This document shows, piece by piece, positions 4,766 through 33,470 of a stretch of 40,626 bases of DNA. The notes under the pieces are model-generated. The model made no database searches and was not told the DNA's origin. It saw only the letters and a program-made list of their open reading frames with translations. This stretch comes from Salinivirgaceae bacterium (GTDB taxonomy: Bacteria > Bacteroidota > Bacteroidia > Bacteroidales > SZUA-534), in the NCBI GenBank assembly GCA_017650325.1, contig JAGCFC010000169.1, positions 1-40,626 of the forward strand, written 5' to 3'. The position numbers and the translations under genes are program-made. The stretch's first letter is position 1. Every line of letters starts with the position of its first letter.

Positions 4766-5458
4766 TTATTTGTTGCTTCCGCGCCGTGTGTAAACCACAA
4801 TGGCGCCGTTGCCGCCCTGAGCGCCGTAGATATTGGCGTCTTTCAAAATCTCAACGTGGTCAACAGTGTGGACATCGATGCCGAATAACGATTCAACAAT
4901 CACTCCATCAACAACATAGAGAGCCTCAGTTGGACCACTAAGTGAAGCTGAGGCACGGATGTTGGCTTGTGCGCCTTCGCCAAACTCGCCCCGGGTTATT
5001 CTAAGACCCGGAACCAAACCTTGCAAAGCTTCAACAAGGTCGAAACGGCCTGTTTTCACAAGGTCGTCGCCGGTAATGGTAGAGCCGGCAGTGAACCGTT
5101 CACGTGTTTTCACATAGTCGTAGCCGATGCTTACCAGACTCTCGTCGCCGGTGGCCGAGTATTGCGACTGGTCGGCAAGGCGGATGCGGATGCTCTTTAG
5201 CCCGTCGACAGGAATGTCGTACAACTCGTTGCGGTATTTCACATGCAGAGTGTCGGTTGGATTCACATCGGTCAGGCCGAAACGCCCCTGGCGGTCCGAT
5301 TGCGCATAGCGATTCACGTCTTTGACGTAAATACGGGCGTGCTTTACGGGATTATTGTTGACATCAACAATCACGCCGTTGAACGGCACTCCCTGACTGC
5401 CTGTTTGCGACATTGCGGCAAGAGGCAGCATTGCTAAAACAACTAACATCCGTTTCAT
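4766..5458 (-). CDS. Stand-alone carboxypeptidase-regulatory plus TonB plug protein
   Basis: The 230-residue product has a signal peptide (MKRMLVVLAMLPLAAMSQ), a carboxypeptidase-regulatory-like beta sandwich (about 26-95) and a SusC/RagA-type plug domain (about 125-227) with GLVPGLRI, YVVDGVI and VEILKDANIYGAQGGNGAIVV. It ends at TRRGSNK, just where a TonB-dependent receptor would enter its 22-strand barrel, and a stop codon follows. No barrel remnant lies downstream: the next 28 bases lead into a terminator. Such plug-only proteins exist in Bacteroidota; the role is unclear and could be periplasmic or surface assembly. It may instead be an old truncation, but the frame is intact from signal peptide to stop. 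Confidence 0.8.
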   Translation of the reverse strand: MKRMLVVLAMLPLAAMSQTGSQGVPFNGVIVDVNNNPVKHARIYVKDVNRYAQSDRQGRFGLTDVNPTDTLHVKYRNELYDIPVDGLKSIRIRLADQSQYSATGDESLVSIGYDYVKTRERFTAGSTITGDDLVKTGRFDLVEALQGLVPGLRITRGEFGEGAQANIRASASLSGPTEALYVVDGVIVESLFGIDVHTVDHVEILKDANIYGAQGGNGAIVVYTRRGSNK

Positions 5459-5565
5459 AGCTCAAAAATTTTTCACTAAAGTGCGATTTTTTCTTCAGAA
5501 ACGTGCTCTTTTTTCGATGTTTGGGCAAAATAAAACGCTAATCTTTTCCATACCGATAAAATTCG

Positions 5566-5573
5566 TAAACTTG
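5566..5573 (+). promoter_or_regulatory. Possible -7 element upstream of the epimerase gene
   Basis: TAAACTTG matches TAnnTTTG at seven of eight positions and lies 47 bases before the ATG at 5620. No clear TTTG sits at the right distance upstream, so this is tentative. Confidence 0.3.
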
Positions 5574-5619
5574 CAGACTGATGGCCGATGGTGGCCGTCG
5601 CTGATTAAAATACGCAGAA

Positions 5620-6585
5620 ATGATAGTAGTTACAGGGGCCGCGGGCTTCATCGGTAGTTGTGTGGTGAGCCGTTTGAACGCCGACAATTTCAACGATATT
5701 GTGATTGTTGACGATTTCAGCAATCCTGAAAAGAACAAGAATTTCGAGGGTAAGCGGTACACCGCCAAAGTTGACCGTATGGAGTTTTTCGATTGGCTCG
5801 ACGCCAACCACCGCTTTGTGGAGTTCATCTTCCATTTGGGCGCACGATCGGCCACGACGGGATTCCCCAAAGAAGTTTACGACCAACTCAATCTGAACTA
5901 CACCAAAACTCTTTGGACAAAGTGCGTTGAGTATGGCCTGCCGATTGTATATGCTTCGTCAGCAGCGACTTACGGCATGGGCGAGTTTGGTTTCGACGAC
6001 AGTCACGAGATTGTGAGCAAGCTGAAACCGATGAACCTTTACGGCGAGTCGAAAAACGATTTCGACAAGTGGGCGCTGGCGCAGGAACGCAAGCCGTTCT
6101 TCTGGGCCGGACTGAAGTTCTTCAATGTTTACGGTCCCAACGAGTATCACAAAGGCCGCATGGCATCGGTCATTCTGCACGCTTTCCATCAGATTCAGGA
6201 AACCGGCAAGATGAAACTTTTCAAATCGCACAATCCGCAGTATGCCGACGGCGGACAAACGCGCGATTTTGTCTATGTGAAAGACCTTTGCGAGGTGATG
6301 ATATTCCTGATGCACCACCGCCGCGACTCTGGTCTTTACAATGTGGGCACGGGCAAGGGCCGCACTTTTGCCGACTTGACAATCAATACTTTCCGCGGCA
6401 TGGGGCTTGAGCCTAACATCGAGTACATCGATATGCCGATGGATATCCGCGACAAGTACCAGTATTTTACCGAGGCCAATATGAGCAAACTGCGCTCCAT
6501 CGGCTACGACCAGCCGTTCTACTCGCTCGAGGATGGCGTGACCGACTACGTTAAGAACTATCTGATACCTAACAAATACTACTAA
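5620..6585 (+). CDS. rfaD: ADP-L-glycero-D-manno-heptose 6-epimerase
   Basis: A 321-residue extended short-chain dehydrogenase/epimerase. The NADP-binding motif TGAAGFIG starts at residue 5; the catalytic region has SSAATYG (113-119) and YGESK (141-145, Tyr and Lys of the dyad); VYVKDLC and YNVGTG are also typical. The family-specific stretch ARSATT near residues 75-80 and the overall length fit RfaD/HldD, which makes the L,D-heptose precursor for the lipopolysaccharide inner core in the cytosol. It is followed after 35 bases by the TerC-type gene with no terminator between, so the two may be cotranscribed. Confidence 0.85.
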   Translation: MIVVTGAAGFIGSCVVSRLNADNFNDIVIVDDFSNPEKNKNFEGKRYTAKVDRMEFFDWLDANHRFVEFIFHLGARSATTGFPKEVYDQLNLNYTKTLWTKCVEYGLPIVYASSAATYGMGEFGFDDSHEIVSKLKPMNLYGESKNDFDKWALAQERKPFFWAGLKFFNVYGPNEYHKGRMASVILHAFHQIQETGKMKLFKSHNPQYADGGQTRDFVYVKDLCEVMIFLMHHRRDSGLYNVGTGKGRTFADLTINTFRGMGLEPNIEYIDMPMDIRDKYQYFTEANMSKLRSIGYDQPFYSLEDGVTDYVKNYLIPNKYY

Positions 6586-6620
6586 TCTGACAAACCACAT
6601 TAATTCAATTAATTATTCAA

Positions 6621-10276: not shown

Positions 10277-13200
10277 TTACTTATTCATCAGTTGTTCTAC
10301 CATGCGCTTCAGCTCATCAATCTGCTTCTGCTGCTCTTTGATGGCCTCGATAAGAACAGGTGCGAGTTTTGTGTAATCGACTGATTTGAAGCCGTCGGCA
10401 TCGGTACTTACAAGCTCGGGATAAATCTCTTCAACCTCTTGCGCTATAACACCTATCTGCTTGCCTTCTTCATAATCAAAACCTAAACTATCAGCCGAAA
10501 CGCCTTTGACTGCGGCCACCTCCTCGCGATTCTTCCAATAGTAGCTTACGCCACGCAGTTTCAACACTTTATCCAGTGCTCCGTCAAGTGTCTGGATGTC
10601 TTTTTTCAGGCGTTTATCTGAACTCTCAATTATCGAACCGTTTACATAAATTCTATTTAAAAAATATCCAGCAAAAGCATTCGTGCCTGTTGCCGAAGCA
10701 TGAATACCTACATTCTGATTTGAACCGCCACTTGCTTGTGCCCAAACACCAAAATTGTTTGCGGCTGATGTTGATGCTCCATCAGGCTTGCGAGAAATAC
10801 CGCGTACTGCAATATTTTGGCTACCTGTCTTCACATTATCAACAATTGCGTTTACGGCATAAACATTGTCGGTTGAAGCCGTGTTTGATACATATGCGTC
10901 GAAAACATAAATTGAATTGGATGTTGTAGATATGTTTATACGGTCACCATACGCAACTTTAGCTTTACCTGTAACATCTGTTTGAGAACCAAATACATTA
11001 TTTGATGTTGTGGCGCCTTTTGATTCTGCATAAATAGCATAATTTGTGCCAGTACCGTGTGCATAAGCATGAATGCCATGACTGGTGACGCACTCTCCTT
11101 CAGATTCTCCCATGATTCCAGTATTAATATTCTTACCGATAGCTGCTCTGCCGTAAACACCATAATTCTTGACAGAAGTTCCATTGCTACTAACAGCATT
11201 TGCATATAATCCATAATTTTGGCTAGAGCCATTTCTTGCAGCAACATTTATACCATAAGCAAGGCTACCTGTGCATTTATTTTCTACAGTCAAGCTTGCA
11301 GAATTTGTTTCCGCTTCCACAGTAAGAGAACCATTAATGTTCAAATATTTGGAGCTGAAATCACCCATTATTAATGGTGTTGAAGAAACGCCATTATCAA
11401 TATATAGTCTATTATTGACAGATAGAGTTGAAAAACCCGCCTTATGCCCAATAAACACATTATTAGAACCAGTGTTTTTATAACCTGCACTATCGCCAAT
11501 AAATACATTATTGTTGCCGTTCCCATTTTGGCAGCCTGATTTTGCACCAATAAATACATTATTGTTACCGTTCTTAATTCCGGCACCTGATGTTGCACCA
11601 ATTAATACATTGAGGTTGCCTGTCTCAATTCCATTACCCGATGAGACACCTATCAATACGTTTTGACTACCAGATTTATTAAAATGCCCTGCCATATCAC
11701 CGATAACTACATTTGAATAACCTGATGTATCGTGTCTACAAACTTCATCACCGATAAGAATGTTTCCAGAGGCATTGTTTTGCCATCCCGCCATTCGACC
11801 AATAAAAATATTATAATGCCCTGTTTTGGCCATACTTCCAGCTTCTTGTCCTATAAAAATATTATTGTAACCATGTTTATTAGAGTATCCTGCTTTTTCC
11901 CCAAAATACACATTGCGGTATCCGGTAATGTTTGAATATCCAGCTTGACTGCCAACGAATACATTCATAGTTCCATTGGTATTTGAATAGGCTACGCTGT
12001 CGCCAATAAACACGTTTCTCCACCCAACGGTATTTGAGAATCCTGCATTGTTGCCTAAAAATACATTGTTTGCACCTGTTGTATTTTTGTAACCAGCCTG
12101 ATAACCAATAAACACATCGTCGGTTGAAGTTGATGACTCTGAGCCCCGACCAGCATTCTCGCCAATGGCAATGGTACGTTGCATGCTGTCAGCCTTCTGT
12201 GCGGCATAAGTACCTAATACCACGTTGCTTGAGCCTACTTTGTTGGCCTTACCAGCTTGATTACCCAAAAAGACATTGTTTTTACCAGTGGTGTTACTGT
12301 AACCTGCACTATCACCAATGAATATATCATTTTCACTGGTTGTTTCGGCAGAACCGTGGCCTGCATAATAGCCAATGGCGATTGTTTTGTTCATTTTTCC
12401 GGCTCTTCCGGCAGCCATATAGCCCAGTATCGTGTTGTAATTGCTTACTGACAAGCGTTGGCCGGAATGCGCACCCATAAGAATATTATACCTACCATAT
12501 GCCTGGTATCCTGCTGCATATCCTAAAAAAATATTGTCTGAACTTGCAGTATCGTTTGCTCCTGCAAAATAGCCGAGATAAATATTGTCGCCACCTGATT
12601 TATTCTTGAATCCGGCTTTATAACCCATATAAATATTCATTTGGCCGTCAGTGTTTGATTTTCCTGCCGACGGACCAATAAAGACATTACTTGTACCATC
12701 TTCGTTAGAAAAACCTGCAGAATCACCTAAAAACACATTCAATGCACCTGTAATATTGGAAAAGCCGGCATTGTTTCCAACAAATGTGTTAGCAAAACCC
12801 TCATCTTCAGATTCATTAGGTTTTGTATTCCTTCCCGCATCATATCCTGCAAAGAAGTTCTCCGCCGTAATATTCATATAACCAGCGTTGCCGTTTGCGC
12901 CTTTCTCCGTTACAGCAAAACCACTTTTGTTTCCCGCTCCATCTTTACCTTCTACACCGAAGCCGCTCTTGCTGCTGCCGCCGTTAACATAAACGCGGGT
13001 GCTGTCGGAGGTAACTTCAAGAATATCAGAGTCGGTGCCTTTGGCGCTGCGTCCGGTAACAATCAGGCCGCTGCGCTTGTTTTTTGCGCTGTTATCATCG
13101 AAACTGATTTTGGTGCCGTCGGTGGCCACTTTCATATAATTAGAGGCCTCGCCCTTAGTGTTGCGCCCTGTAACAATAAATCCGCTGCGTGGCACCTTGC

Positions 13201-14461
13201 TATCGCCTTCAAGCTCGTCGTCAACAATAACCTGTGTACCATTGGGGTCAACAACCAGATAATCCTGTTCACCGTCGCCTTTGGTGTTGCGGCCGGTAAC
13301 GCGCAGGCCGCTGCGTGGAACCTTGCCGTCGCCTTCGTCAACAATAACCTGCGTACCACTCGGGTTCACAACCAGATAATCCTGTTCTGCTTCGCCTTTG
13401 GTGTTGCGGCCCGTTACAATTAAGCCACTACGTTTAACCTTGCCGTCGTTCTCGTCAACAATAACCTGCGTACCTGTGGGGTTGACAACCAGATAGTCCT
13501 GCTCGGCATCGCCTTTGGTGTTGCGGCCGGTTACAATAAGTCCGCTGCGCTTAACCTTACCATCGTTCTCATCAACAATAACCTGCGTACCAGTGGGGTT
13601 AACAATCAGGTAGTCCTGCGGGGTTTCGCCTTTGGTGTTACGTCCGGTTACAATAAGTCCGCTGCGTTTAACCTTGCCGTCGTTCTCATCAACAAACACC
13701 TGTGTGCCTGTTGGGTCAACAACCAGATAGTCCTGCTCGCCGTCGCCTTTGGTGTTGCGGCCGGTAACGCGCAGTCCGCTTCGTGGAACCTTGCCATCGC
13801 CCTCGTCAACAATAACCTGCGTGCCGGTAGTATTTACCACCAGATAGTCCTGATCGCCGTCGCCCTTGGTGTTGCGTCCTGTAACACGCAGGCCGCTGCG
13901 TGGAACTTTGCCGTCTTTGCCGTCGTTCTCATCGACATACACGCGCACCTCGTTGGGATAGACTGCGAACACAACATTGCCGTCGTTGTCTTTTACCTCG
14001 AAAAGAGCGTCGCTTGAGTCGGTTGGATTGTTCGCACCGCTGTTTTGAGAGCTGTTGCCACTCCTTACCGCATAGAGGGCGTAAGGCACAGCCTGAATTT
14101 TTGTTGCACCGAAACTGGTGTAGCTGCTGCCACCGTTAATATCGATGCCGATGTGTAACCAAGCCTGGCTTCCGGCCCAGTCAACGTTCGAAAGACTGCC
14201 GCCGTTCTGCGGCGTTCCGCTGCCGACAGTCACGCCCAACACGCCATAGGCGTTGGTACGAGCGTTCTGCGTCTCGCTGTACATCACTTTTGTGCCGGTG
14301 CTATCGGCAATAGTGAGCTGAAGGCCAACGCTCTTGTTGCTCACAAGTTCGCCGTTGGAGTCACGCACCACTGCCTGGTACGAGAAACCGTTAGTTTGCG
14401 CCACTGCTGCCATGGTGGTCAGCGTTGTGACAATTGAGAGAATTAAACTTCTAATTTTCAT
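10277..14461 (-). CDS. Giant repetitive surface fibre with S74 autocleaving chaperone domain
   Basis: The 1394-residue product has a signal peptide (to about residue 21), then an N-terminal domain common in Bacteroidota fibre proteins (FSYQAVVRDSNGELV to VPYALYAV). About residues 165-490 hold eight 39-residue repeats with core RSGLxVTGRNTKG. About 555-1015 hold some 27 repeats of about 17 residues with core NVFIGxxAGxxNTxG, resembling the left-handed beta-roll of YadA-type heads. A Gly/Asn/Ala-rich neck follows, then a peptidase S74 domain (about 1279-1394) with a Ser1281-Lys1286 pair in SSDKRLKKD, spaced like the catalytic pair of endosialidase chaperones, and a coiled-coil end. S74 domains trimerise a fibre and then cut themselves off. 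No T9SS signal or membrane anchor is visible, so attachment is unknown. Confidence 0.85.
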   Translation of the reverse strand: MKIRSLILSIVTTLTTMAAVAQTNGFSYQAVVRDSNGELVSNKSVGLQLTIADSTGTKVMYSETQNARTNAYGVLGVTVGSGTPQNGGSLSNVDWAGSQAWLHIGIDINGGSSYTSFGATKIQAVPYALYAVRSGNSSQNSGANNPTDSSDALFEVKDNDGNVVFAVYPNEVRVYVDENDGKDGKVPRSGLRVTGRNTKGDGDQDYLVVNTTGTQVIVDEGDGKVPRSGLRVTGRNTKGDGEQDYLVVDPTGTQVFVDENDGKVKRSGLIVTGRNTKGETPQDYLIVNPTGTQVIVDENDGKVKRSGLIVTGRNTKGDAEQDYLVVNPTGTQVIVDENDGKVKRSGLIVTGRNTKGEAEQDYLVVNPSGTQVIVDEGDGKVPRSGLRVTGRNTKGDGEQDYLVVDPNGTQVIVDDELEGDSKVPRSGFIVTGRNTKGEASNYMKVATDGTKISFDDNSAKNKRSGLIVTGRSAKGTDSDILEVTSDSTRVYVNGGSSKSGFGVEGKDGAGNKSGFAVTEKGANGNAGYMNITAENFFAGYDAGRNTKPNESEDEGFANTFVGNNAGFSNITGALNVFLGDSAGFSNEDGTSNVFIGPSAGKSNTDGQMNIYMGYKAGFKNKSGGDNIYLGYFAGANDTASSDNIFLGYAAGYQAYGRYNILMGAHSGQRLSVSNYNTILGYMAAGRAGKMNKTIAIGYYAGHGSAETTSENDIFIGDSAGYSNTTGKNNVFLGNQAGKANKVGSSNVVLGTYAAQKADSMQRTIAIGENAGRGSESSTSTDDVFIGYQAGYKNTTGANNVFLGNNAGFSNTVGWRNVFIGDSVAYSNTNGTMNVFVGSQAGYSNITGYRNVYFGEKAGYSNKHGYNNIFIGQEAGSMAKTGHYNIFIGRMAGWQNNASGNILIGDEVCRHDTSGYSNVVIGDMAGHFNKSGSQNVLIGVSSGNGIETGNLNVLIGATSGAGIKNGNNNVFIGAKSGCQNGNGNNNVFIGDSAGYKNTGSNNVFIGHKAGFSTLSVNNRLYIDNGVSSTPLIMGDFSSKYLNINGSLTVEAETNSASLTVENKCTGSLAYGINVAARNGSSQNYGLYANAVSSNGTSVKNYGVYGRAAIGKNINTGIMGESEGECVTSHGIHAYAHGTGTNYAIYAESKGATTSNNVFGSQTDVTGKAKVAYGDRINISTTSNSIYVFDAYVSNTASTDNVYAVNAIVDNVKTGSQNIAVRGISRKPDGASTSAANNFGVWAQASGGSNQNVGIHASATGTNAFAGYFLNRIYVNGSIIESSDKRLKKDIQTLDGALDKVLKLRGVSYYWKNREEVAAVKGVSADSLGFDYEEGKQIGVIAQEVEEIYPELVSTDADGFKSVDYTKLAPVLIEAIKEQQKQIDELKRMVEQLMNK
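11420..12795 (-). repeat. About 27 coding repeats of about 17 residues (beta-roll-like)
   Basis: Within the fibre gene, units of 16-19 codons repeat with the pattern N-V/I-F-I/L-G-x-x-A-G-x-x-N-x-x-G. Copies are diverged at DNA level, unlike the 39-codon array, indicating older duplication. The regular G and A positions fit stacked turns of a beta-roll. Confidence 0.8.
13003..13950 (-). repeat. Tandem 117-base coding repeats (39 residues)
   Basis: Eight copies of a 39-codon unit lie in tandem in the fibre gene; homologous positions such as 13351 and 13468 are exactly 117 bases apart. Each copy contains RSG(L/F)xVTGR and most contain DYLVV and GTQVIVDE. Several copies are near-identical in DNA, which would allow copy-number change by recombination. 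Confidence 0.85.
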
Positions 14462-14650: not shown

Positions 14651-14659
14651 GGGGGGGGG
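14651..14659. repeat. Homopolymeric G9 tract upstream of the fibre gene
   Basis: Nine consecutive G on the plus strand (C9 in the direction of the fibre gene), about 190 bases before the fibre start. It stands out in otherwise A/T-rich DNA and is of a length known to slip in phase-variable genes. Confidence 0.6.
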
Positions 14660-16756: not shown

Positions 16757-16790
16757 AAAAGGAAAGCCGGCTTTTAACCGGCTTCCTTTT
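16757..16790 (-). terminator. Terminator at the end of the giant adhesin gene
   Basis: A hairpin with arms 16757-16770 and 16778-16790 (AGCCGG/CCGGCT core plus GGAA/TTCC with one bulge) ends in TTTT on the minus strand. It begins at the stop codon of the giant gene and isolates the TPR gene. Confidence 0.8.
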
Positions 16791-19700
16791 TAATATTTAA
16801 CAACTTTGTGTTGCAAAACCTTACTGTTGCTTACGTACTGCAAAATATAGACGCCATCTGGCAAATCGCTGATATCGAGACTTTGCTCATAACCTTCGAT
16901 TTCGAATATTCTGACAACCTGTCCGCTCTGCGACATCAGACGAACTGTGCCGTCGGCCATTCCGGCGCTGACATTGATACGGAACAAACCATGTGTCGGA
17001 TTGGGCACAACTGTCAGCCAATCGGCCTCATCGCCTGCGTAAACCAGAGCCACAACCTTATCGGCATAGTCGCGTTTGCCGTCGAAATCGACTTGCGACA
17101 GACGATAGTAGAGTTGTCCTTGCTCAGGAGCGTTATCGCTGAACGAGTAATCGATACGTCCGTTCGAATCGCCAGCACCACTGACGTAACCAATTGTGAC
17201 ATAGTTGATGCCATCAACCGAGCGTTCAATCTCGAAGTAGTCGTTGTTGTTCTCCGACATTGTTGTCCATTCAAGCACAACGCTGTTGCCATCCTGACGG
17301 CCTGTAAAGGCGGCGAAGGTTACCGGAAGCGGGTTGATTTCGGGGTCGACATTCGTTGCACCAAATGTGAATGCGCTGTAAGATCTCACCTCGTCTTTAG
17401 TGCGTATCGAATTGCCACCAACAATTACACCTTCGAGTTTTTCCCAAGTACCATCACTCTTTTCATGTGCAATAACCAAACCATCAGTTGTCGTAACTCC
17501 GCTGTAATCTGACCAATAAAGTGTGATATAGCTATTTACATTGCCATGAATATCCCACAAATCCTGAGCACTTACACGTTCAACACCTGTGGGTAACTTC
17601 TCTTTATCGGTAATTGCAGGTTTAGATGCATCGAAAGCGTAGTTGACGGTGAACTCTGCTCCCGCCGCTGTTGGCGTTACATCCACGGTCGCAGCGTGTT
17701 TTCTGTCGCCCTCGCCACTACCTACCAGGAATTTAAACAATCCCATGTTGTCCCATGTCTTATGCACTTTACCATTTACCCAACTGCTGCCTGTCATGTA
17801 GCCACTAGGACCAATATTGATTTGATTGTCAGCCTTGACAATACCTCCGTCAAGAGCCATAGCGTGATTGATTGTTGGAGCATCCACTACCTCAACAACG
17901 CTGCTGTTGCTGAAAGTAATATCGTAGAACGTTCCGCCGCCTTTAATCTGCTGACCTTCGCCACCGGCGATTTTAACATCGCCAGCGCCCTCGAAGATTC
18001 CGCCGTTGTTCAGCGTACCAGTTACTTCAATAGTGCTATTGGCAGTTACTGTGCCACTATTGGTCAGATTTTTAAATTTAACCGATGAGCCTTGAACCGT
18101 ATGTTCACCGCTGCTAAATTCAACAGTACCACTACCCTTGAACTCGCCAGCACTCTCTACATTGCCGTTGATAGTCAGTTTCTTGTCACCATCAACCTCA
18201 ATGCTGCCCGACTCAAGTTTAATGTTCTTGACAACTGCATCCTCAGCAACAACCTTTGGCAAATCGAGCGGCGTGTCATCCGAAGTCGTACTTTCTTTGG
18301 TAATCTTCTTGCCCTCGCGAACAACTACGTTTGTACCTTCGTCGGGTATGTCTTTTGCCCACCAGTTGGTTGGGTCATTCCACGCTCCATCTGCAGTTAA
18401 GCCTCGCCAGAGGTAATCATTACTGATTGCTTGTTCAGCAATATCGTAAGTCGACGAGCAAATCTTGTTATTCGCTTCCTCGTCTTTTACTGTCAGCACA
18501 CCTTTCATCTTATCGGCCTTCGGAACTTCGATTTTTATTGTCCTGCCAGACACGAATTTGCCAGTAAAATCATCCGGTTTACCGCCTGTATAGACAACAC
18601 CTTCGCTACCATAAGCAAACGAATAGTTGGCTGGATTGGTAGAACTTGTCTTCTCCCACTGGATTTGTGCAAGGTTGCCGATGTACATATCGTTAATGTC
18701 GAGCGAAAGGTCGTCACCCTTGAGAGTTGGTGTCTCGCGGACAGTAAGTGGTTTTTCTACTGTATATGAACGGCTGCAACCACCATTGCTGACCCTAACT
18801 TTAAGGTTATATGTTCCTGGCGTCATATATGTTCCTGCCTGTAGTTGCGATGTCCCTGAGCCCATCACTCTTGTTTCACCACACAACGAAGTAGAACCGT
18901 TAAACAATTCATAATACAAATCGGCAGGATTCGTAACTTGCACCTCAGCATAAGTGTTGTTGCAAGCATCTGCTATGATATCCAAACGATTGGCAGCAAA
19001 TGCGAAATTATCACGAAGAGTGATTGATCGTTCTTTGTACCCAGATATACCGTCATGTCCATCAATATTAGCGGTTTCAATAACTTTCAGTATTGCAGTT
19101 GCTCCCACAAAATTTTTATTCCAAACAACAGTAACTGTATTTTGCGTGTTATCACCAATTATCGTTCCTGCGCCAACAGTTTCAATTGACCACACGTACG
19201 TGTGAGAACCCACCCTTTCCGTTTTATAGGTATATTTATCGCCCTCATCGTATGGTTCGGTAGCCGCCTTACAAGCAATAAACTCGTCGCCTGTGGCTTC
19301 GTTGATTACAACTGCATGAATATCAGGTTGCGGTCTATTCATGACATTCACATTCATCGAACTCGTCCGTTTACATGTTTTCGATGGATTAATCGCAGTT
19401 GCAGGCACACTGTAATTCATCTCTATTTTCAAGGTCACACCATATTCTTGTCGTGATCCATTAACTTTATTTCCCAAACCAAATGTAACTTGTGGGTTAT
19501 AAATGTTGGTTGCTGAGAATACTGGTTTCGCAGAATTGCCTGTATCATAACTCCACGAATATGAGTTATTGTCCCATTTTGTTGTAGCAACAGTGTATTC
19601 GCGAGAGTCTTCCATTCCCACATATTTTGCACCAGTAATTGTTGGAACAGCATTGTAGAATACAGTAACATCGACCTTGTTCCTTGTATGAGCCACACCT

Positions 19701-22700
19701 GCAACTCCACCTTCCGAAACCGTAAGAAGTTCAATGGTATAAGCCATAGGCTCACCCTCAGCATCCTCTTTGAATCCATTGTCGCGGCCAAACAATGCAG
19801 CCAAATCGTTACCAGAGAATGACAAAACATCTGCGCCTGACTCACCTGGAGTAAATGTTATAGTCGAAGTTTTCGAAACGCCATCGACCGTCACCTTATA
19901 ACCAACAGTGTATGGTCCGCCCTTACCAGTGAAATAAATTGGAATAGAAGTTACGTCTTCATCTCCATCACATATTTCATATTTTGTATGAACGTCGCTT
20001 TCGGCAATCGGATTTACAAGACGCGCCGTTGTACTTGCATAACCGATGGTATAGCAAGTATGCCCGCTAAGCGTAATTCTGTCAGTTGTCTGCACGTTTG
20101 CCTGCGGAAGCGAGCCATCCTTGTATGAACTTGGTATTTTCTCCCATTTATTGAAATTCTCACCAGCCTCTTTTATCAAACCAGCAACAGCCAATCGGTC
20201 GAGGGCTGAGTTCGAAAGTGATTGAAGGGTAAATTCGCCGGCTCTGATTTTCAGTTTAGCCTGTGCGCCATCGACACTCGAAGCCACAGTCCAATATTCT
20301 GTTTGACTAGCAGCTGTGAGAGGTCCTAAAACTTCGTTTCCACCATACTCTTCGCTACTATGGAAAGTAACGGTATAGAATCCTGCCGCCGAAGTACTGC
20401 TAAGTTCTGTAGGAGCAAACGTTGCATCGCCCACAGGGAAGATGAAACCACTGCTCGCCGTCATCTGCTTAGTCAACGGACCTTTGACATACGAGGTTTC
20501 TGTAGTTCCTGTCACATCACCCGACGAACTGATAATCAAATGGCTGTCATCAGTACCAGTGATGCACCCATTGCCCATCAACAGACGATAGCCAATTGTT
20601 ACATTGGCATCAGCGTCTCCCGCTTTTTCCAATTCTACACCATTCGGATTGTTAATTTTCAGATTCCAGAACGATGATGAATTGTTCGACAAAATGATTT
20701 TTTGAGTCTTGGTTCCATTGAACTCTACAAGAGAATTGCTGTTATGGCTTCCCGGCACGAAACCAGAACCGACTGTATTTTCATCAATCCAATTTCCTTT
20801 GATATGAATCTTTGTATTACCAAAGTGCAACTTCGCTCCACTTTCTATTGTTAAATTACCATTGATGTACTCGCCATCCTCTTTGGTCAGAGTTTTGGTT
20901 CCCGTTCCCGACAGAATCACATTCTGCAATGGCTGCGATGAGTGACCGACAATAGAGTTCGGCAATAAGCCGTCTATATCACCGCTAAACTCGATAATGC
21001 TATGCTCGTTATTCAAGAATTCCTCGAAGTCGCCTGCAGGCAGTTTATAATAATTATCGCCACCATTTTGTGGAACTATCGGACTCATTATCAAATGTCC
21101 AACGCCATCAACATGTCCGAAATCGCTACCCGAAGTTGCGCCAATATCAAGTTTACCCAAAGAATTGTTTGGAGTTCCGTCTTTATCGGTTTTGTCGAAA
21201 TACAGACAATATGCCTTCTGCGGAGTTGTCATCCTGATTGTATGCCCCGGTCTAATGTGAATCGGGTTGCCCTTTGGAGCGACTTTATAAGGATGCCATT
21301 GGCTGTCGTCGTTACTATAATACTCCCAACTCCAACCTTCTTCTCCAACACCTTCGTCGTTTTCCCAATTTCCAACACTCTTTGCCGTGTACAAAACTGG
21401 CAACTCTGTATATATTGACGTTGAGTTTACAACACCTGCAGTGTAATCGCCCGCAATGTGGCCAAAAGGTCCGAAGGTTATTGTTTTGTTATCAGCATCA
21501 ACACTTGCAACATCAGTCACGTCAACCCATTGGTATTCCGTCAATCCTCCATAATACATATACTCTGGTAACAGATCGCCTTCTGTTCCTTCCACTTTAC
21601 CATCGGTATAAGTGTAAGTTTGAGTAACACTGAAGTTTGCGATGCGGTCATTAATGTCGCGCTCGTCATCGCCAAAGCCGGTAGTCTTTACAACCCAATA
21701 GTAGTTAAGCCACTTCGACGGCTCTACCGACAAGTTCTTATGCAACGAGTTTATTGTTTTTACTGTGATTGAAGCATCATCGTTATCGTTACTTGCAAAT
21801 TGGTACCGCACCGGTGTGTAATGTCCGGTTATACCTATAGGTAATGTGAAATCCGACGCTCCTTTTTTCACGTATTTAACTACACCATGGTCCTCGTGTT
21901 CACCGTTAAGACGGATCATGTGAGTATTGTCGAATGCATTTTCTTTTGGAACCACCGTTGCATCCTTGTCAAGAATAACGCGGCTACGATTGATGTATAA
22001 CAACGAGCCTATAACCAACTGGTTGGTAATCCTCATATCGGTATTAAGCCAAACCTCGTTTTGATTGCTTACGATGACTTTGCCTATCGAGCCCAAACCA
22101 CTGCCGCCAATAGTCTGGCGCGCATCGCTACGAACAAAGTCGATACCGCCGGTTCCCACGAATGAACCATCGTACATCAAATTGCCGTAAAGAGTTATGG
22201 TATTGCCATTATCGTGAACTGTACCGCTATTTTGAGTCAGATTGCCTGCCACACGGATATTTGAGCAACCTTCAGTCATCGACAGGTCACCATTAATTTC
22301 AAGAGTACCAAATTGTGTTGCAATACCGCTATAGCCTTCAATTTGCATGTCGGTTCCATCGAAAACGGTGAGTTGGTCAGGCGAGCCTGCAACAAATCCC
22401 TTGCTCATGGTGGCAACAAGGTCATCGGCCACGTTGTTGTGGTTTACAAACGCTTTGCGGATTGTAAGTTTATGGCCTGCGGCATTGTAAACACCAGTGT
22501 TGGCAATGGTAAGTGTATGCAAATTAACATCGTTTACAACTTGCAGTTCGCTGCCATTCTTAATTTCTATCTCATGCAACTTTATATTTGTCCGCAATTC
22601 GGCAGTTTTACCTGAACAATCGACTATGATTTTGCCACCAGTGCAACTATTGTCTGCTGCATAGAGGTAGATATCGCCATATTCACCTCCCGTGCCATTT

Positions 22701-25700
22701 TTAATTGTGATTGTTCCTCCGCTCATATCGAACTTACCAGTGTTGATAATTTCGAATATTGCACGTTTAATTTGGTTTGTGTTACGGTCTTGTCCTTTAA
22801 TCAACACATCGCCTCCGCTTTGATTCCAAACAAGCGAACCTGTCGCCTGATCGGTTAGACGGCAAATCTGTCCGTTCACAATCAGTTCACCATCCGTTAT
22901 GGTAATCGACGGAAGACCATCAGCCGCATAGAATATGCTACTATGAGTACCAGATACGGTATTTCTACCAACATACAGTTTTCCTCCCGATATTGTAATG
23001 TGACCATTTAAGGTAAGATTCTTTTGGTTCGACGTGTTTGCAATAACTGCGCTACCCGAAACTATCGACAAACAAGCCGACCCTGGAATTGACATGTCTT
23101 TGTCATTTGTCAAATAAACTTCATTGCCTTCTCCAATAGCCACTTCAAATGTTCCTCGTTTCAATTCCAAAAGTTCAAACGTACTCTGCGTTTTGATTCC
23201 TGGGGTGTTAAGTACCAATTTTGTTTCAAGATTGTCTTTTTGGCAAACAAACTTATTGAAACTGTAATTGTTGCCTGTGGCCGAACCGGAAATATGCGAC
23301 TCGTTTGAACCGACAAATTCAACATCGAATTTATTGTTAGCGCTATATGCGTTAAAAATACCATCAACAACAAGGTCGCCTTCGATTCTTACAAGGTTTG
23401 TTTTACCATTGGCTTTTGATCCTCCAGTCTGTATTTTTGCGTTACTGCTAACGGTAACATTACCTTTAACATTGTAAGTCTCTAAATTGTTGTCTGCTGT
23501 ATTCCACATTTCGAAAGTGCCGTTCTCCGCAATTTCAAAATCCCTATCGATATTCACAGTGCGATTGTTAGCGTATGCGCTACGGGCATATCCGCTAACC
23601 GTAAAATCGTTGAACACTGTGATATTTGCATCAGGCATTTGAATCGGACTAGCCGATGTACCACCACTAATAACCAAATTGTAGTAATTTGCAGGTGCCG
23701 ATGGTATGGTGTACCGTGTAGCACCATAATACTCAACCGTACCACCATGGTCACCGTTAAACTTTTCAAAGTTGACACCATTGTTGGGGAATGCTCCTGT
23801 TGCAATACGTATTGTTCCCGCATAGATGGCTTCATCGACATCGACAATCGACGGCACAAAATCCGTATTGGCTTGAACATCGAGAGTCGAGCCTGGAGCA
23901 ATGCTTAGGCTTGCACATCTTAATCCATCCTCATTGAGAACAACTGTATGCTGGTGATCGATATCGCCAATCACTATTGTAGTGTTTTCGTCAATTACTA
24001 CCGATGTACAAGGCGTACCACCAACGAATTCTGTCGACCACGTATCGGCATCAGTCCAATTGTGGGGATTTTCATCGTCGACATTGCTCGATGTGTAAAG
24101 CACTGTGCTTGCTATAAACGATTCGTTTTCACCGCACGAATAGTAACCATTTACGCTTTTAACATTTGAATAAGAGAAGGTCATGTGACGCTCATTCGCA
24201 TCGCTGCCGGTGCCAACCAAAACTGGTGTATCGCGCAAATCCCATTCACCGTTCAAATAACGGCCACCACGCCACGTTGAACTAACAATACTTTCAACTC
24301 CGTCACCATAATCGTAGAACAAACCGTTACCAAACCATTGGTAAGTCTGCGTCAAAGATCCCACATTTTCAAACCCTGTCTGTGAACTAATCCAATAAGC
24401 GTTGAGTGATTCAGGTTTACGGAAGGCGCGGCCCGAAACCGGACGCACCGTTACACTACCGTAAACATCGGCGGCAGTATAACTGATGGTGGCAGGCGCA
24501 TAATAATGAACTCCGCCCAACTCGAATCCGAACGGGAACATAAACAACCTGACATCTTCCGAATAAACCTTTGTAACTCCAAGACTGCTCGTACCAACAG
24601 TTTGTATCATGCGGTCAGGACCAAACTCACCATCGCCAGCCGCAACTGTGCCATTGATACCAAAAGTCAGGTTGCTACTACCGATATTGAAGATTGTCGG
24701 TTTAGTGAAATTCAATTTGCCATTGATTGTCAGTTTTGTCTGACGTCCTTCGCTGTTGGGGTCGAGCAATTTCATTTCACTGTCGCTATTAATATCGACA
24801 TTGCAAAGCACTCCATTGCCATTACTGTAAATAGTGTTGCCGTTTAGGACAAGTTTACCGGCACTGGCGCTTCGTCTCACATGGGTACCATTAACCTCAA
24901 CATTGCCGTTCATGGTGTAAATGTTGTTGTCGGCACCATCGTGCAATTCGGCACCATCGGCAATTGTAAACATATTGTTTACCGCGATATTGTTGTTAAT
25001 GTACAATTTAGAATTCTCGTCGATAACCAAATCGTGGAATCCTGTTTTGTTATCAGCCGTGCCACTAACAATATTGCCAACCGATGACAATTGTTGTTCG
25101 TTGCCACCACCATTAAACACCACACTTCCTGTTTTTGTTTTTACGATTGCGCCACTCTTGACAATCAGATTTCCACCAACTTCAATATTCTTAACCTCTG
25201 TATTTGTTCCAACTGTAAATTTTACACGCTCGTCTATTGTAAGATTATTTTTTACATATAGGTTATCGGGATTTACAGTGACATTAACACTATAGACTTT
25301 TCCCGAGAAATTCTTATATATATACTCATATCCCTTGTTGCCCGCATCGGTAAGCGTCAGATTGTAAAGTGGTATACTGCAAATCATATAATATTTTGTG
25401 CCGTTGACGCCACCTACCGCATCGGCTGTGCTGATACGTATTTCGCCGCCATCAATATTACTATTGTCAGGGTTACAATTGATAACAAATGCACCAGCAC
25501 CATCTTGCGCACTATGAATATCGAGAAGACCGCCTGTCATTTTGAACGTATAAGTGCTGAACGGCATGTAGAAAGTAGCATATCCACTTTTACCTTCGCC
25601 TTGTCCGTCAAACTTGGCCGTACCTCCAGTCATAATAAAGGTTGTTTTGCCATTGGCAGCATATTGCGATGGGCGGAATATCGACCCGTGCAATTCACCA

Positions 25701-28700
25701 CCGTTTACTATAATTTCCGATGTGTTGCGGAACACCACACCTGCGCTTTTTTGACAATCAAGTTTGCCCTTATCGATAACCACCTTTCCTGCCGGCATCA
25801 AACAAGCATTAGATTTCGTCCCTGTGCTTGGGAAGCAAACATCAACCTCAACATTGTCGCCGTTCAAATACAAGCAACCATTCAACGGAATAAAGGCGTT
25901 ATCGTTTACATTTGGTTCCGAAAGTGTCTTAATGTGAATATCGCCTGTGAGTTCAAGCGTTCCGTTTTTCAACCACAAGGGTTTCAATAACAATGGAGGG
26001 TTATCCTGATCGGCAAAACTGTCGTCCATCTCATTTGCCCTTCCTGTCAATGCAAAGTGATTTCTGTTGTCGGCAAATAGCGTAACACTATGTGTTTGGC
26101 CAATACCTTTGTCGATAATCAATTGGCTAATTTGGGTTGTGTTCCAGCACTCGAATCGGGCATCGGCTTCGCCAATGAAGTGTAAAATACCACGGCCTGC
26201 GGCATTCTCGTCGGCCCTTGCCAAAGTCTCTGTATAGCCACCGAAAGTTCGCCGTGTAATAGCCAACTCGCCATGGTTAATCAAGTCGCCACCCACTTCC
26301 AAGGTTATGTAATTATTCTTATTACCATCTTTCACATCGCCATGGATGCCGATTTTGCCCTTTTCGTCAAGCGTGATATTCTTTCCGACAGTGATAATCT
26401 GTCCGTTTCGGCGGAATTCGAGTTTACCATTATCAATTTGCAAATTGCCGTTTATCACTAAATGCTTTGAAGCGTTATTGGGCAAACGCATTGTAACATT
26501 ATTAGTTGTAAAGTTGATTTTCAAATTGTTAAACTCCATCTGTTCCAACTCGTATGTACTGCCAGCTGCCGGCGAGCCGTAGAACTCAGTTGTTCCGCCA
26601 TCGGCTGCCATAAATTTCTCAGGATTGACAATTCCTGATGGGAAATCGCCACGTCCCTCAATACGCAATACTCCATTACCCGACAAGTTGTTGATATGTA
26701 CATAGTCGCTCAAGCAGGCTGTTCTAATCTCTAACCTCGATGACTCTTCTTTTTTAAGCAATACCGAACGGGCTTGTATTCCGGTCAATGTGCCAGTTGT
26801 AATGGTGCGGCCTTCAAGAATAACAACATCGGTTTTTGGACCAGGTGTTTTATGGCCAGGATTACCTTCGTCCAAACCAATGGAACCTGCCGATTTTAAT
26901 GTCCATGTTTGCCAATCACCCCACTCGCCGCTCGTATAAGAGTATAGCGTTATAATTTCCGGATCCTCAACTGCCGTCCATATACCGCAGATTTTCCCGT
27001 CCTCAATATTTATTGTATTATCAGTATACTTACTATGGTTGTTATAATCGTAGGTCGGCTCAGCATCACCCACCTTATGCATCAGAATCCAATATTGCTG
27101 ATCGCTTGCACCATAACCGTTAACATCATCGGCATCGACATAAGTGAACGCAAGCGCACCTGTTGTGTTGGCATCGGAGCTGCTTACTGTCCAGTAGCGC
27201 ACAAGGTCGTTTGATGTACCACGGTAGGCTTCGCCTTTAACATTCACCGAAACATAACCATCATTTGCTATTGATGAAAGACCCGTAAGAGTGGCCGGAG
27301 AGTATAGATATTGCATTTCGCCCATGCTGGTGGTAGTGGTGGTACCAATAGGCATTGTCAAATCCAAACCTGTCTGTGCCGCACCTGTATTGTTCAGATA
27401 TGTCAGTTGGCTGTTACCGCTCATAATAATCATGTGGTCGCCATTAAACGTACCTGTGAATGCATTGGTAACAGTCAAATTCTTCCCGTTCAAAGCAATA
27501 CGTCCGTTTGCCCACGATAGTGTGCCGTTAACAATGGCATCGTCGAACAACGATATGTTTTTCGTGGCAGCCGTGCTGAGTGTCAGGTTGTTATATGTGC
27601 CTGGCAACATACTTGTACAACTTGCAGCGTATGTAACTGTTCCAGTGCTGTTGAAATGCATACTTGCTGTAGGAGCGTTGGGATTAACCTTCAAATCGTT
27701 GATAGTTACGGCAGCAGCCGAGAAATTGATGTTGCCCGTGGTTCCTGTAAAATCAGTAGCCTCAGTAAATGTCACATTGGCGGCATCAAGATTCAAAGTT
27801 CCCGCAACACATAATTTGCCATCGAGTGTAATATCGCTGGCAATTCCTATTATGCCTGCCAAGGTAAGTGTAGCCGAATGAGCACTTATCTTGCGAGCAT
27901 CTGCAGAGCCCCACGCCAAAGTTGCATCGGTTCCGCCGCCCGTAATGGTGGCGTTGTTGTTAACCACCAATGCGTTGTTAAGGGTTATACCTTTATTAAT
28001 AGTAAGATTTGCATCTGCGGCCAATTCAACATTCGAAGTCTGGATGTTGCTTGCGCCACCAGATGTAATAGTAGCATCGCCCGCCACTTGCAATGCTGTA
28101 GTGCTGACTTTTAATGTCGAACCATCAGCTATAGTGATAGTACCGGCATTAACCGACATGTCTTTAACAGTTGTGATATCGGCGGTAGCAGCAGCGAATG
28201 TCGCATCTGGATTTACAGTGACTTTATTGAGTGTCTTGTTATTATTATACGTGAATGTTCCTCCGTTAACCACAACTTCGCCAACCTTGACTGTTGTAGT
28301 GCTTGTACCAACATCTACACTTGCAAATGTTGTAAGCGTTTTTCCATCGGCTGTCAATCCTGTACCAACAACCAATTTACCTCCACCTTTAATTATCTGG
28401 TCATTATTGAAGGTCAGGTCCTTGCTGTCACCAATTGTGAAAACACTACCATCGGTTATCTCAATATCACCATCTCCGGCAAACACCACATGGTTGGTTC
28501 TGGTTTTTACATCTCCCGCAATAGTCAACTGATTCGGAGAATTGACCGTTATTTGCTTAACATTTATCCGAGTTGTACCACCATCGTAACCTATGGTTGG
28601 ATTTACATCATTGAATGTTAAATATTTACCTCCAGAAATAGTATCTTTAATAATAAAATTATTAGAACTACCATTTATTATAAATGGACCGTTTCCTGTT

Positions 28701-31700
28701 TTAGTAGGATAGAATTTTTTAATGGCTACATCTCCGCAAATTGTTACTTCTGTCGACTTTAATGTCAACGCACCATAATTACTTGAAGCAAAGATGTATG
28801 TACATTCCGCATCATACTCAATACTTTTCTCATTTGCATCAAACTCAAAGCCAGCAAAGCAATCTGTCGGGTTCAAATTACTAATATTCACATTAATGGC
28901 GGCAACATATTTTCCCGACATTGTTTCAATTCCATCAAAATTGATATCTCCTCTTAATTTTAAAGCACTACCATAATTATTGATAACCGAACCTGATAAT
29001 TTTGAATTCTCTATTGTTGTCTCTCCATTAGCCTCCGACTGAGCACTGCCATTCATGGCCAGTCCAACCAAAAATGTTTTTTCTTCAAGAACAACTTTAC
29101 CATTATTATTGATTGTCAGATTATTAAACTCAACTCCATCCTTTGTCCTCCTACTAACAGTCAATAAGCCTCCATCAACAACTATTGTTGCTTCAGGTGC
29201 TCTCTCGTCGCCACTCAACTCAAAGTTTGCAACTGTTGTGTTAATCTGATATGGGGAGAATCCACCTGAAACAGATAATTTTCCTGTTCCCGAAACGCTT
29301 GTGCCACTTGCCCCAAAATTAAGATTGGTTGTTGCCACTACTCCGCTAATCTCTGCTTCCGAACTTAATTGTAAATTGTCAATAGTAAGTGAGCCTTTCA
29401 AATCTTGTTCATTAGCCAAAACCAGATTTCCATTACCTGTTATTGTTGCCTCTGTCTCTGCTGCCGTTCCTCTATTAAGTGTAAGAGCCATATTTTCAGC
29501 AACATCGAAATCGCCCAACAGTTTTACACTATTAGCAATTTCTACATTTTCAGCAACCGAAACACTTGCACCGGAAGCCGAAGCATCGATTACCGCTGCC
29601 GAAACCGTGCGCGCACTGCTGAACGACAGTTTTTGGTCCGCACCTATAATAATATTACCGCCAACAGTCAACGACTCAGTTCCTGCAAAAGCAATGTTGC
29701 TACCCGTCAAAGTCAGGTCGCCAAGTATTGTTGCATTGTCGGGCGATACCGATGTTACACTGTTATCATTGTTCAGCACCAAGTTGTTGAATTCCCAATA
29801 TGCCTGACTGCCGAAATTGCCTCTCAGTTCAACCGTGCCGCCTTCGGCCGACATAAACTGAGTATAATCGCGAGTGCTGTTTTGAGTAAAATCTTGTGTA
29901 CCATCAACTCTCAAAGTTCCTGTACCATACACAAGTCTAAAGGCAGGTGTGTTTTTGCCATAATCCAATGTACCAACAATCTTCACAGATTTGGCTTCGG
30001 CAGCACCGTTTATTGAAATATCAGCATCCTCAAGAATCTCAACATTGTCGTATGATGTAGGCACATCAGTGTTGCCCGAATCCGAACCATCAGGATTGAG
30101 TGTCCAAGTTGTAGCCAAACCCCAATCGGTAGTGGCACCAGCATCGGTACGTGAATAGAACACTTTTCCATTATCGACGGCTGTCCAGCGGCCAACAATG
30201 GTCGAAAGTCCGCTTGCGCTGATTGTGTTGTCTCCTTCATTCAAAACTGATGTTTCCGGATTTCCGTCGCGTGTAAGTGCACTGAAAAGTTCGGTATCGC
30301 TGTCATCGTCATCGTATTTAAAGGTTACAGCAGCATCGCTTACGCTGATATTTTCAGCATCAATGTCCCACCAGCGTTTCAAGTTCAAAGGCGAACCTGA
30401 AGGAACAATTGCATTAGCCGATGTTATGCCAACCCATGCATCAGCACTTTCCGCTGATACTCCGCTTGTTATTTCAACAGGCGAATACTGTGTGTTACCA
30501 CTCTGAGTTGTACCGATAGGGAACAACAACGCGCCGAAGTTGCTGATTTTCAGCGCGCCGGAAGTTTCACCATCTTTACCCACAACAATCATATGGGTAG
30601 AACCAAAAGTGGTGTTGCCCGAAATTGCTGCGCTGGAACTTGTCAATGCCAGTTCATGGCCAGCGAGCGTAATATTGCCTGCAGTCCATGTCAGAACGTT
30701 ATCGACTGTAACATTATCGCAAAGTGTCACATCTCCTCCAATTGTCATATTATAATATGTATCGGACCAAACGTATGTCGAGGTTGATTCGTAAGTGATA
30801 TTTTTATGACCTTCGTTGTCAGCAACAATCTCAACACCATCAAGGCATTTCACAAGATTGCCCACTGTTGAGCCGCTGGCCACGTGAACACTACCTTCGC
30901 CACCGATTGTTGTGTTTGCGCCAAAATTGATTGTGCCGTCGAGCGTCAGTGTTTGGGTATTGTCCACTGATACTGCGCCTTCCAATGTGGCATTGGTTGC
31001 GTTAACCGATTCTCCGAAATTGGCAGTACCATCACTTGCCACGTTGAGCGCAGAGAGTGCGGTTGTGCGGTCATAGTTAAGTGTGCCGCCACCCGTAACC
31101 GCCAATTGTGGTTGAACCGCTGCATCAACTACCGCACCACCAATATTCAATGTTATTCCATCGGCTGTCAAAGTTTTGTCAGCACCATTAATAACGCCGT
31201 TAAGCGAAAGTTCATAACCTCCCGATATTGCTGCACTATTGGCAACTTCGAACACACCGCTTACCGTTACGTTGTCACAAAGTTCGGCATTGGCACTTAC
31301 AGTCAGATTACTATAATTGCCACCCAAAATAATGTCGGATTCTGTTCCATAACTGATTTCGGCATTATTGGCCACCGTTACATTGAGGCAGCTTGCCAAT
31401 CCGTTGATGGTTGAACCACTGGCAATTTGAACATCGCTGCCACTGGTAATAGTTGTATTTGCACCAAATGTTATGTCGCCACTGAGCATCAACGTTTCGC
31501 CACCGACTACCGACACTGTTCCCAACAAAGTGGGATCGGTTACAGTTACAGTTGAGCCAAATGCCACCGTACTACCGCTTGCCACATTCAGTTCTGCCAA
31601 ATCGTTGTTGCGGTTGTAATTCAAAGTGCCATTAGCGGTTACTGCAAATTTCGCATCCAATGCGCCATCGCCATCAACTGTCATTGTTATTCCGTTGGCT

Positions 31701-33439: not shown

Positions 33440-33470
33440 AGTCATGTCCTCCCAACTTTGTTTTAATCTG

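Follow-up and report, generated by a model that had tools for sequence, protein, structure and literature searches.

A phage-fiber-like gene on a Salinivirgaceae chromosome probably encodes a secreted adhesin of the mosaic adhesive trimer kind

A cellular surface protein that resembles a phage fiber is in itself already known: the mosaic adhesive trimers (MATs) of Bdellovibrio are exactly that. Bdellovibrio bacteriovorus has 21 MATs, 13 with an S74 domain and 8 without, which share a domain of ~130 amino acids (aa) after the signal peptide and have swapped tips (PMC10769870). MATs are displayed on the surface of the predator, were described as its prey-recognition tool, and in Bd3182 lose S74 self-cleavage through the substitution S782A (PMC10769870). 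The main text of that report has no word starting with "Bacteroid"; its Discussion leaves the attachment of the MAT base domain open and cites supplementary domain tables for other bacteria, predatory and otherwise. Here we describe an S74-ended fiber gene in 40,626 nucleotides of DNA from a Salinivirgaceae bacterium of the phylum Bacteroidota (contig JAGCFC010000169.1; the whole stretch is called the window below) and compare it with MATs.

The gene starts with an ATG at position 14461 and ends with a stop codon at 10277-10279. An initial annotation of the window had given the same coordinates and the same length, 1394 aa, and had not stated the strand, which is minus. The features of the gene are as follows.

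10277..14461, minus strand: S74-ended, MAT-like fiber gene, 1394 aa (open reading frame [ORF] read, Pfam and NCBIfam matches)
14396..14461, minus strand: signal peptide, residues 1-22 (by eye)
14054..14395, minus strand: conserved N-terminal domain (N-domain), residues 23-136, related to Bdello_MAT_N (profile matches)
12962..13903, minus strand: repeat array 1, 8 units of ~39 aa (RSGLxVTGRNTKG...), ~residues 187-500 (periodicity)
11357..12841, minus strand: repeat array 2, 17-aa period (NNVFIGxxAGxxNxxG), within ~residues 541-1035 (periodicity, matches to PHROG tail/virion families)
10622..11356, minus strand: tip region, ~residues 1036-1280 (the part least alike among paralogues of the same genome)
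10280..10621, minus strand: S74 intramolecular chaperone/protease plus a terminal coiled-coil-like, heptad-like helix (by eye), residues 1281-1394
10619..10621, minus strand: codon of Ser1281, predicted nucleophile and cleavage point (SDKRLK motif)
10604..10606, minus strand: codon of Lys1286, predicted catalytic partner (SDKRLK motif)

The N terminus, MKIRSLILSIVTTLTTMAAVAQ, reads by eye as a signal peptide, and five other complete paralogues from the same genome share this layout. Both repeat arrays were periodic beyond all 200 shuffles of their sequence: lag-39 identity in array 1 was 0.52 (shuffle maximum, 0.15), and lag-17 identity in array 2 was 0.35 (shuffle maximum, 0.14). Array 2 would form a beta-helical shaft. 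In the ~245-aa tip, periodicity did not rise above that of the shuffles. PF13884 covers residues 1281-1351 with 64.1 bits (gathering cut-off, 22), and the Ser1281/Lys1286 pair is intact within SDKRLK. The signal peptide, the two distinct arrays and the catalytic pair thus stand as the initial annotation had read them, and the C-terminal fragment of ~13 kDa that it predicted agrees with a computed mass from Ser1281 of 12.9 kDa. Among Protein Data Bank entries, S74 matched the distal subunit of a phage long tail fiber (6f45, E 6.3e-08) and weakly matched myelin regulatory factor (MYRF; 7dc3, E 0.0044). SDxxxK is common to the window fiber and to the known S74 peptidases of the K1F endosialidase, the T5 L-shaped fiber and MYRF; those known systems hold the domain in a virion or a transcription factor, whereas here it belongs to a secreted cellular fiber. 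By pattern, we found SDxxxK in 36 of the 39 ORFs that have both S74 and the N-domain. By analogy with the S74 family and the published work on Bd3182, the window S74 domain would trimerize and cleave itself.

We found that the NCBIfam model Bdello_MAT_N (NF053851) matches the window protein at residues 12-115 (E 5.6e-10, 39.2 bits). The same model matched 14 places in the genome of origin with 22.6-48.8 bits (best E, 1.2e-12), and these are the places matched by an independent N-domain profile minus two short ones at contig ends. The relation of the N-domain to MATs is drawn solely through this NCBIfam model, not through direct comparison with Bdellovibrio MAT sequences. The likeness extends to the rest of the protein. 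Both groups have a signal peptide (by eye here), a conserved base domain of ~115-130 aa, which scores under the MAT cut-off here, and a long repeat-rich shaft; the C-terminal end is either S74 with its SDxxxK or another tip domain swapped in. The tips are TNF-like and C-type lectin in MATs and lectin-like and C1q in Bacteroidota. The S74 repertoires are also of like size, with 13 members in Bdellovibrio and 13 loci over the cut-off here, 10 of them long fiber ORFs.

The genome of origin (3.22 Mb in 244 contigs) has these 13 loci above the PF13884 cut-off. They include six complete N-domain fiber genes, the window gene among them, and four long ORFs of 594-1760 aa broken at a contig start. The others are an S74-only short frame (C9, 217 aa), a contig-end fragment (C10) and a short protein of a different class that contains an in-frame stop (C107). 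A six-sequence profile found 16 N-domain matches, two of which are the short contig-end pieces. Across 11 genomes of the genus, we counted 11-31 N-domains and 5-15 S74 domains per genome. N-domain relatives at 50-55% identity include Salinivirgaceae metagenome-assembled genomes from ruminant omasum, reticulum and abomasum.

We compared the regions of the window protein with those of 19 relatives from its own genome and found that the nearest paralogue changes along the chain: C118/C179 for the N-domain (83-85% identity), C38/C190 for array 1 (86-87%) and C190/C179 for S74 (64%). The tip was alignable in 9 of the 19 relatives and was only 23-36% identical. The family thus has many paralogues with one end in common and the other end diversified. 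We also scanned the last 230 aa of 138 N-domain proteins, which remained of 141 ORFs with a complete C terminus once two containing X and another of 134 aa had been excluded. Among the Pfam matches listed (25 of 39 families), S74 accounted for 43 ends, Lcl_C for 20, collagen for 13 and Fib_succ_major for 12, while C1q, H-lectin or BclA_C turned up singly (E 0.01). Runs of collagen-like Gly-X-Y, a trimer motif, are present in 5 of the 19 relatives checked. Lcl_C and Fib_succ_major tips, known from the collagen-like adhesin Lcl and from FISUMP proteins, are also found on fiber homologues; the window protein differs from these adhesins in its S74 end and has no collagen match. No diversity-generating reverse transcriptase was found beside the FISUMP-tipped members by regular expression over the ORFs at hand.

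On the basis of its architecture, its paralogue family and their mosaicism, its catalytic residues and its N-domain relation, we consider it probable that the window gene encodes a chromosomal, secreted adhesin fiber that belongs to a Bacteroidota branch of MAT-type fibers. Several observations weigh against this. All Bdello_MAT_N matches lie below the curated cut-off of 60 bits (best, 48.8), and we therefore call the fiber MAT-like; 11 of the 14 stop by model position 83 of 162. The best match of the N-domain profile in the Protein Data Bank had an E of only 0.33. The SDxxxK pattern failed in 3 of the 39 S74-plus-N-domain ORFs; in two of these the S74 match starts beyond the motif, and the third (locus L117, 8184-9920) lacks it. 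A literature search, with subscription papers and most preprints outside its scope, returned no experiment on a Bacteroidota member. Unlike Bdellovibrio, the Bacteroidota host has no known predation, the window fiber has 39-aa arrays and its relatives have collagen segments, and many Bacteroidota members adjoin a partner gene that carries the C-terminal domain (CTD) of the type IX secretion system (T9SS).

A MAT-like fiber of this layout would be trimeric, surface located and adhesive, and would mature as follows. Its signal peptide would direct Sec export, and three chains would assemble along their repeat shafts, helped by the C-terminal S74 domain as trimerizing chaperone. After folding, Ser1281/Lys1286 would cut before Ser1281 and free the chaperone, exposing the tip. 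The N-domain would stay at the cell end and hold the fiber to an outer-membrane partner. The genome would in this way keep a repertoire of one base with shuffled shafts and tips, whose members would serve as receptors for other cells or for surfaces.

We also considered that the gene might encode the tail fiber of a domesticated or resident prophage or the fiber of an extracellular contractile injection system. The shaft and S74 do have matches among PHROG tail families (best, phrog_4636, 2.5e-48), and fibers of contractile injection systems may bear S74 or C1q (PMC12923769). Against this stand the signal peptide (by eye) and the surroundings of the gene, which is flanked by a phosphate transporter pair (PHO4, DUF47), TerC, an epimerase, a TPR protein and a 5551-aa T9SS protein. 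We scanned 71 of the 73 neighbor proteins around 11 S74 loci of the genome, omitting proteins of >1500 aa. Among the Pfam matches listed (25 of 129), we found ordinary bacterial families such as MreB, TsaD, RNB and AICARFT; among the PHROG matches listed (25 of 53), none had a structural name, all being metabolic, enzymatic or blank. Sheath, tube and baseplate genes were not named among the neighbor matches listed; no whole-genome search for them was made. N-domain relatives numbered at least 560 in genome contigs (one peptide pattern) and 5 in 2.9 million viral contigs (two patterns), counts that are not strictly comparable given the differing patterns. All 79 N-domain loci kept from the genome-contig scan carry Bacteroidota names. 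In two of the five viral contigs (L194 and L195), the T9SS partner gene immediately precedes the N-domain match, so that these two are probably host DNA at provirus edges. With no support among the neighbor matches listed or from the viral-contig scan, we dropped the prophage and injection-system explanations as very improbable. The initial annotation had reported no phage genes nearby and had taken the gene for a chromosomal, cellular fiber; with paralogues beside ordinary genes and an N-domain widespread in Bacteroidota, this view is well supported.

How a secreted MAT-like fiber leaves the cell and is attached had been left open in the initial annotation, which noted neither a T9SS signal nor a barrel anchor. 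Consistently with this, the last 230 aa of the window fiber gave no match to NCBIfam, T9SS models included, at E 0.01. The end of the neighboring 5551-aa protein, cut to the same length and used as a positive control, matched TIGR04183. No T9SS model was among the 17 NCBIfam families (complete list) matched by the 138 fiber ends. We therefore rejected direct T9SS cargo, because neither the window fiber nor any of these ends gave an NCBIfam match to a C-terminal sorting domain; in Pfam, where 25 of 39 families were listed for the ends, an isolated T9SS match could go unseen. A YadA-type barrel anchor, as in trimeric autotransporters, was also absent insofar as S74 was the sole Pfam match at E 0.001.

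A candidate answer came from gene linkage, at loci other than that of the window gene. By clustering the neighbors of N-domain genes, we found a recurrent small ORF with a product of ~160 aa that has a signal peptide, the core GGxx...GSxSxTxGE...LTQGFQQ and, after it, a T9SS sorting domain of type A. The first cluster (63 of 130 loci) was inflated by matches to the sorting domain only, including the 5551-aa protein of the window, and we therefore based all counts on a model confined to the core, with the sorting domain left out. Upstream adjacency was counted only for genes with 700 bp of upstream sequence. At the named loci, the partner lay within 300 bp upstream of 31 of 76 non-S74 genes and 3 of 17 S74 genes; in genomes of the taxonomic family, the figures were 7 of 19 and 0 of 20 (window gene included). 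For genes with a cut C terminus, they were 4 of 21 (named) and 1 of 10 (family), and for viral contigs 2 of 4. Partners lay downstream of 11 of the 90 named genes and of 2 of the 38 family genes, directly so for S74 fibers at loci L106 and L119. These loci were selected for N-domain genes and are not independent, in contrast to scans of 392 genomes of the phylum.

In those scans, the N-domain was found in 89 genomes, the partner in 47 and both in 43. Co-occurrence gave a Fisher p of 1e-27, and of 4e-23 within the 310 genomes bearing SprA, both values ignoring kinship. All 89 N-domain genomes have SprA, and the 82 SprA-less genomes gave no N-domain match. The N-domain counts are lower bounds, as 10 candidates were scored per genome (the genome of origin gives 10 of 16), and distances to the partner use N-domain places from these best 10. 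We found that 52 of 64 partner matches adjoin an N-domain gene: 44 have a same-strand N-domain within 1000 bp downstream, and 8 follow an N-domain gene within 4 kb. Four lie farther away, three of them at 1.3-1.6 kb, and eight have no N-domain among the matches listed on their contig. Among 20 family genomes, partner and N-domain occur together in 18 and are absent from the same two.

The sorting domain itself was checked with TIGR04183. All 30 seed partners match TIGR04183 and PF18962, partly by construction because seeds had to show a PNP-like sorting-domain motif. A fairer test, independent of seed choice, used the 30 core-model matches fetched from family genomes (mostly one genus); 8 were already seeds and were excluded, and TIGR04183 matched 21 of the other 22. 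The single miss is not named in the list; one frame, L221, is only 121 aa. The genome of origin has three partners, all above the TIGR04183 cut-off. As gene linkage, the phylum-wide association is statistically strong, and we regard the link of the fibers to a partner bearing a T9SS signal as the new and unusual part of this work; the literature search described above found neither the N-domain in Bacteroidota nor the pair.

Because the partner is linked to the fibers and has the sorting domain that they lack, we propose that it carries or tethers them, which would refine the reading as a MAT-like adhesin. The partner would bind the fiber N-domain and carry the fiber across the outer membrane or tether it there, and we hold this to be quite possible, if short of probable. 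The co-occurrence and adjacency counts, the joint presence in the same 18 family genomes, the SprA restriction and the sorting domains of the partners argue for it. Against it, no partner precedes the window gene or any family S74 fiber within 300 bp, only the 3 of 17 named S74 fibers have one upstream, 46 of the 89 N-domain genomes gave no partner match at the sensitivity used, and the genome of origin has its three partners for 14-16 N-domain loci. With the window gene and its S74 kin lacking an adjacent partner, sharing in trans must be assumed, so that such fibers would use a partner encoded elsewhere. To our knowledge, Bdellovibrio has MATs but no T9SS, which also counts against the coupling. 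Alternatively, the fibers may take another outer-membrane route, for instance a BAM/TamL-type or lipoprotein-export route, and the partner may merely be co-regulated, for example as a separate matrix or adhesin protein. The lack of a neighboring partner for most S74 fibers examined fits this, as does an N-domain protein of the same genome (L079, on C108, ORF 5247-6605) with a lipobox-like VAGC at the end of its signal peptide. The strong linkage of partner and N-domain and the restriction of the N-domain to SprA-bearing genomes in the sample speak against such a route, although both could partly reflect shared ancestry, and we judge it possible but on the doubtful side. The lipobox-like VAGC of L079 further suggests that the N terminus is the membrane-proximal end. 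Known T9SS adhesins (SprB with SprF; type A CTD cargo) are likewise surface proteins of SprA-bearing Bacteroidota, and a helper gene often adjoins the gene of SprB-type adhesins (PMC12618676). The present fibers differ in lacking a CTD, which is on a separate small protein, and the partner is cargo-like, unlike the PorP/SprF shuttle of SprB-type adhesins.

Taken further, the MAT-like adhesin reading could extend to a two-gene display system across the phylum. A CTD-less, S74- or lectin-tipped trimer of the MAT type would hitchhike, for export or anchoring, on a small type A T9SS cargo that binds its N-domain; in this rumen-type genus, S74 members would have expanded to about a dozen copies that share partners in trans, some switched by poly-C promoters. 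We consider this full scheme tentative and rather unlikely to hold in every part. If true, hitchhiking on a sorting-domain protein would be a possible second way of using the type IX system. Fibers with a linked T9SS protein make the question of MAT base-domain attachment directly testable in Bacteroidota. Gut and aquatic members would have a large shuffled receptor repertoire, and this could determine how they attach to other microbes, phages, plant fiber or the host.

The promoter element in this scheme was read from a tract upstream of the window gene.

14651..14659, minus strand (G9 on the plus strand): candidate phase-variable element, a C9 tract that lies in TTTTACCCCCCCCC and precedes the ATG by 198 bp

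Genus loci picked around N-domain genes, 547 kb in total, contain four C/G runs of at least 9, each of which sits 186-231 bp upstream of an N-domain gene in the same orientation. The pattern WTTTACCCCCCCC occurred 20 times in 10 of 11 genus genomes, and the reversed control gave 0. Eight sites precede N-domain fibers, and nine lie ahead of other starts judged by eye to be those of a signal peptide or a lipoprotein; three precede neither class or could not be judged. The C-run is 8-14 long and lies ~125-250 bp upstream of surface-protein starts. The tract may thus be part of a phase-variable promoter common to surface proteins. Further poly-C loci are L072, L100, L101 and L231-L250.

Near the fiber gene, the 5551-aa secreted protein (16790-33445) has a type A T9SS sorting domain and is encoded 2.3 kb away, also on the minus strand, the TPR gene lying between the two. 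A supposed solute-binding-protein remnant upstream had no Pfam match and was rejected. A 230-aa ORF at 4766-5458 has CarboxypepD_reg and the TonB-receptor Plug with no barrel match and may be a plug-only protein or a remnant.

We also observed a second, short S74 class (329-427 aa) that lacks the N-domain and has a T9SS-type tail after S74 (nine ORFs by eye). It is found at loci L251, L252, L253, L254, L255, L256, L260 and L261 and in the genome of origin (L025, 8086-9126), where the copy has an in-frame TAG. L253 scored below the TIGR04183 cut-off, and the other three of the four tested scored above it.

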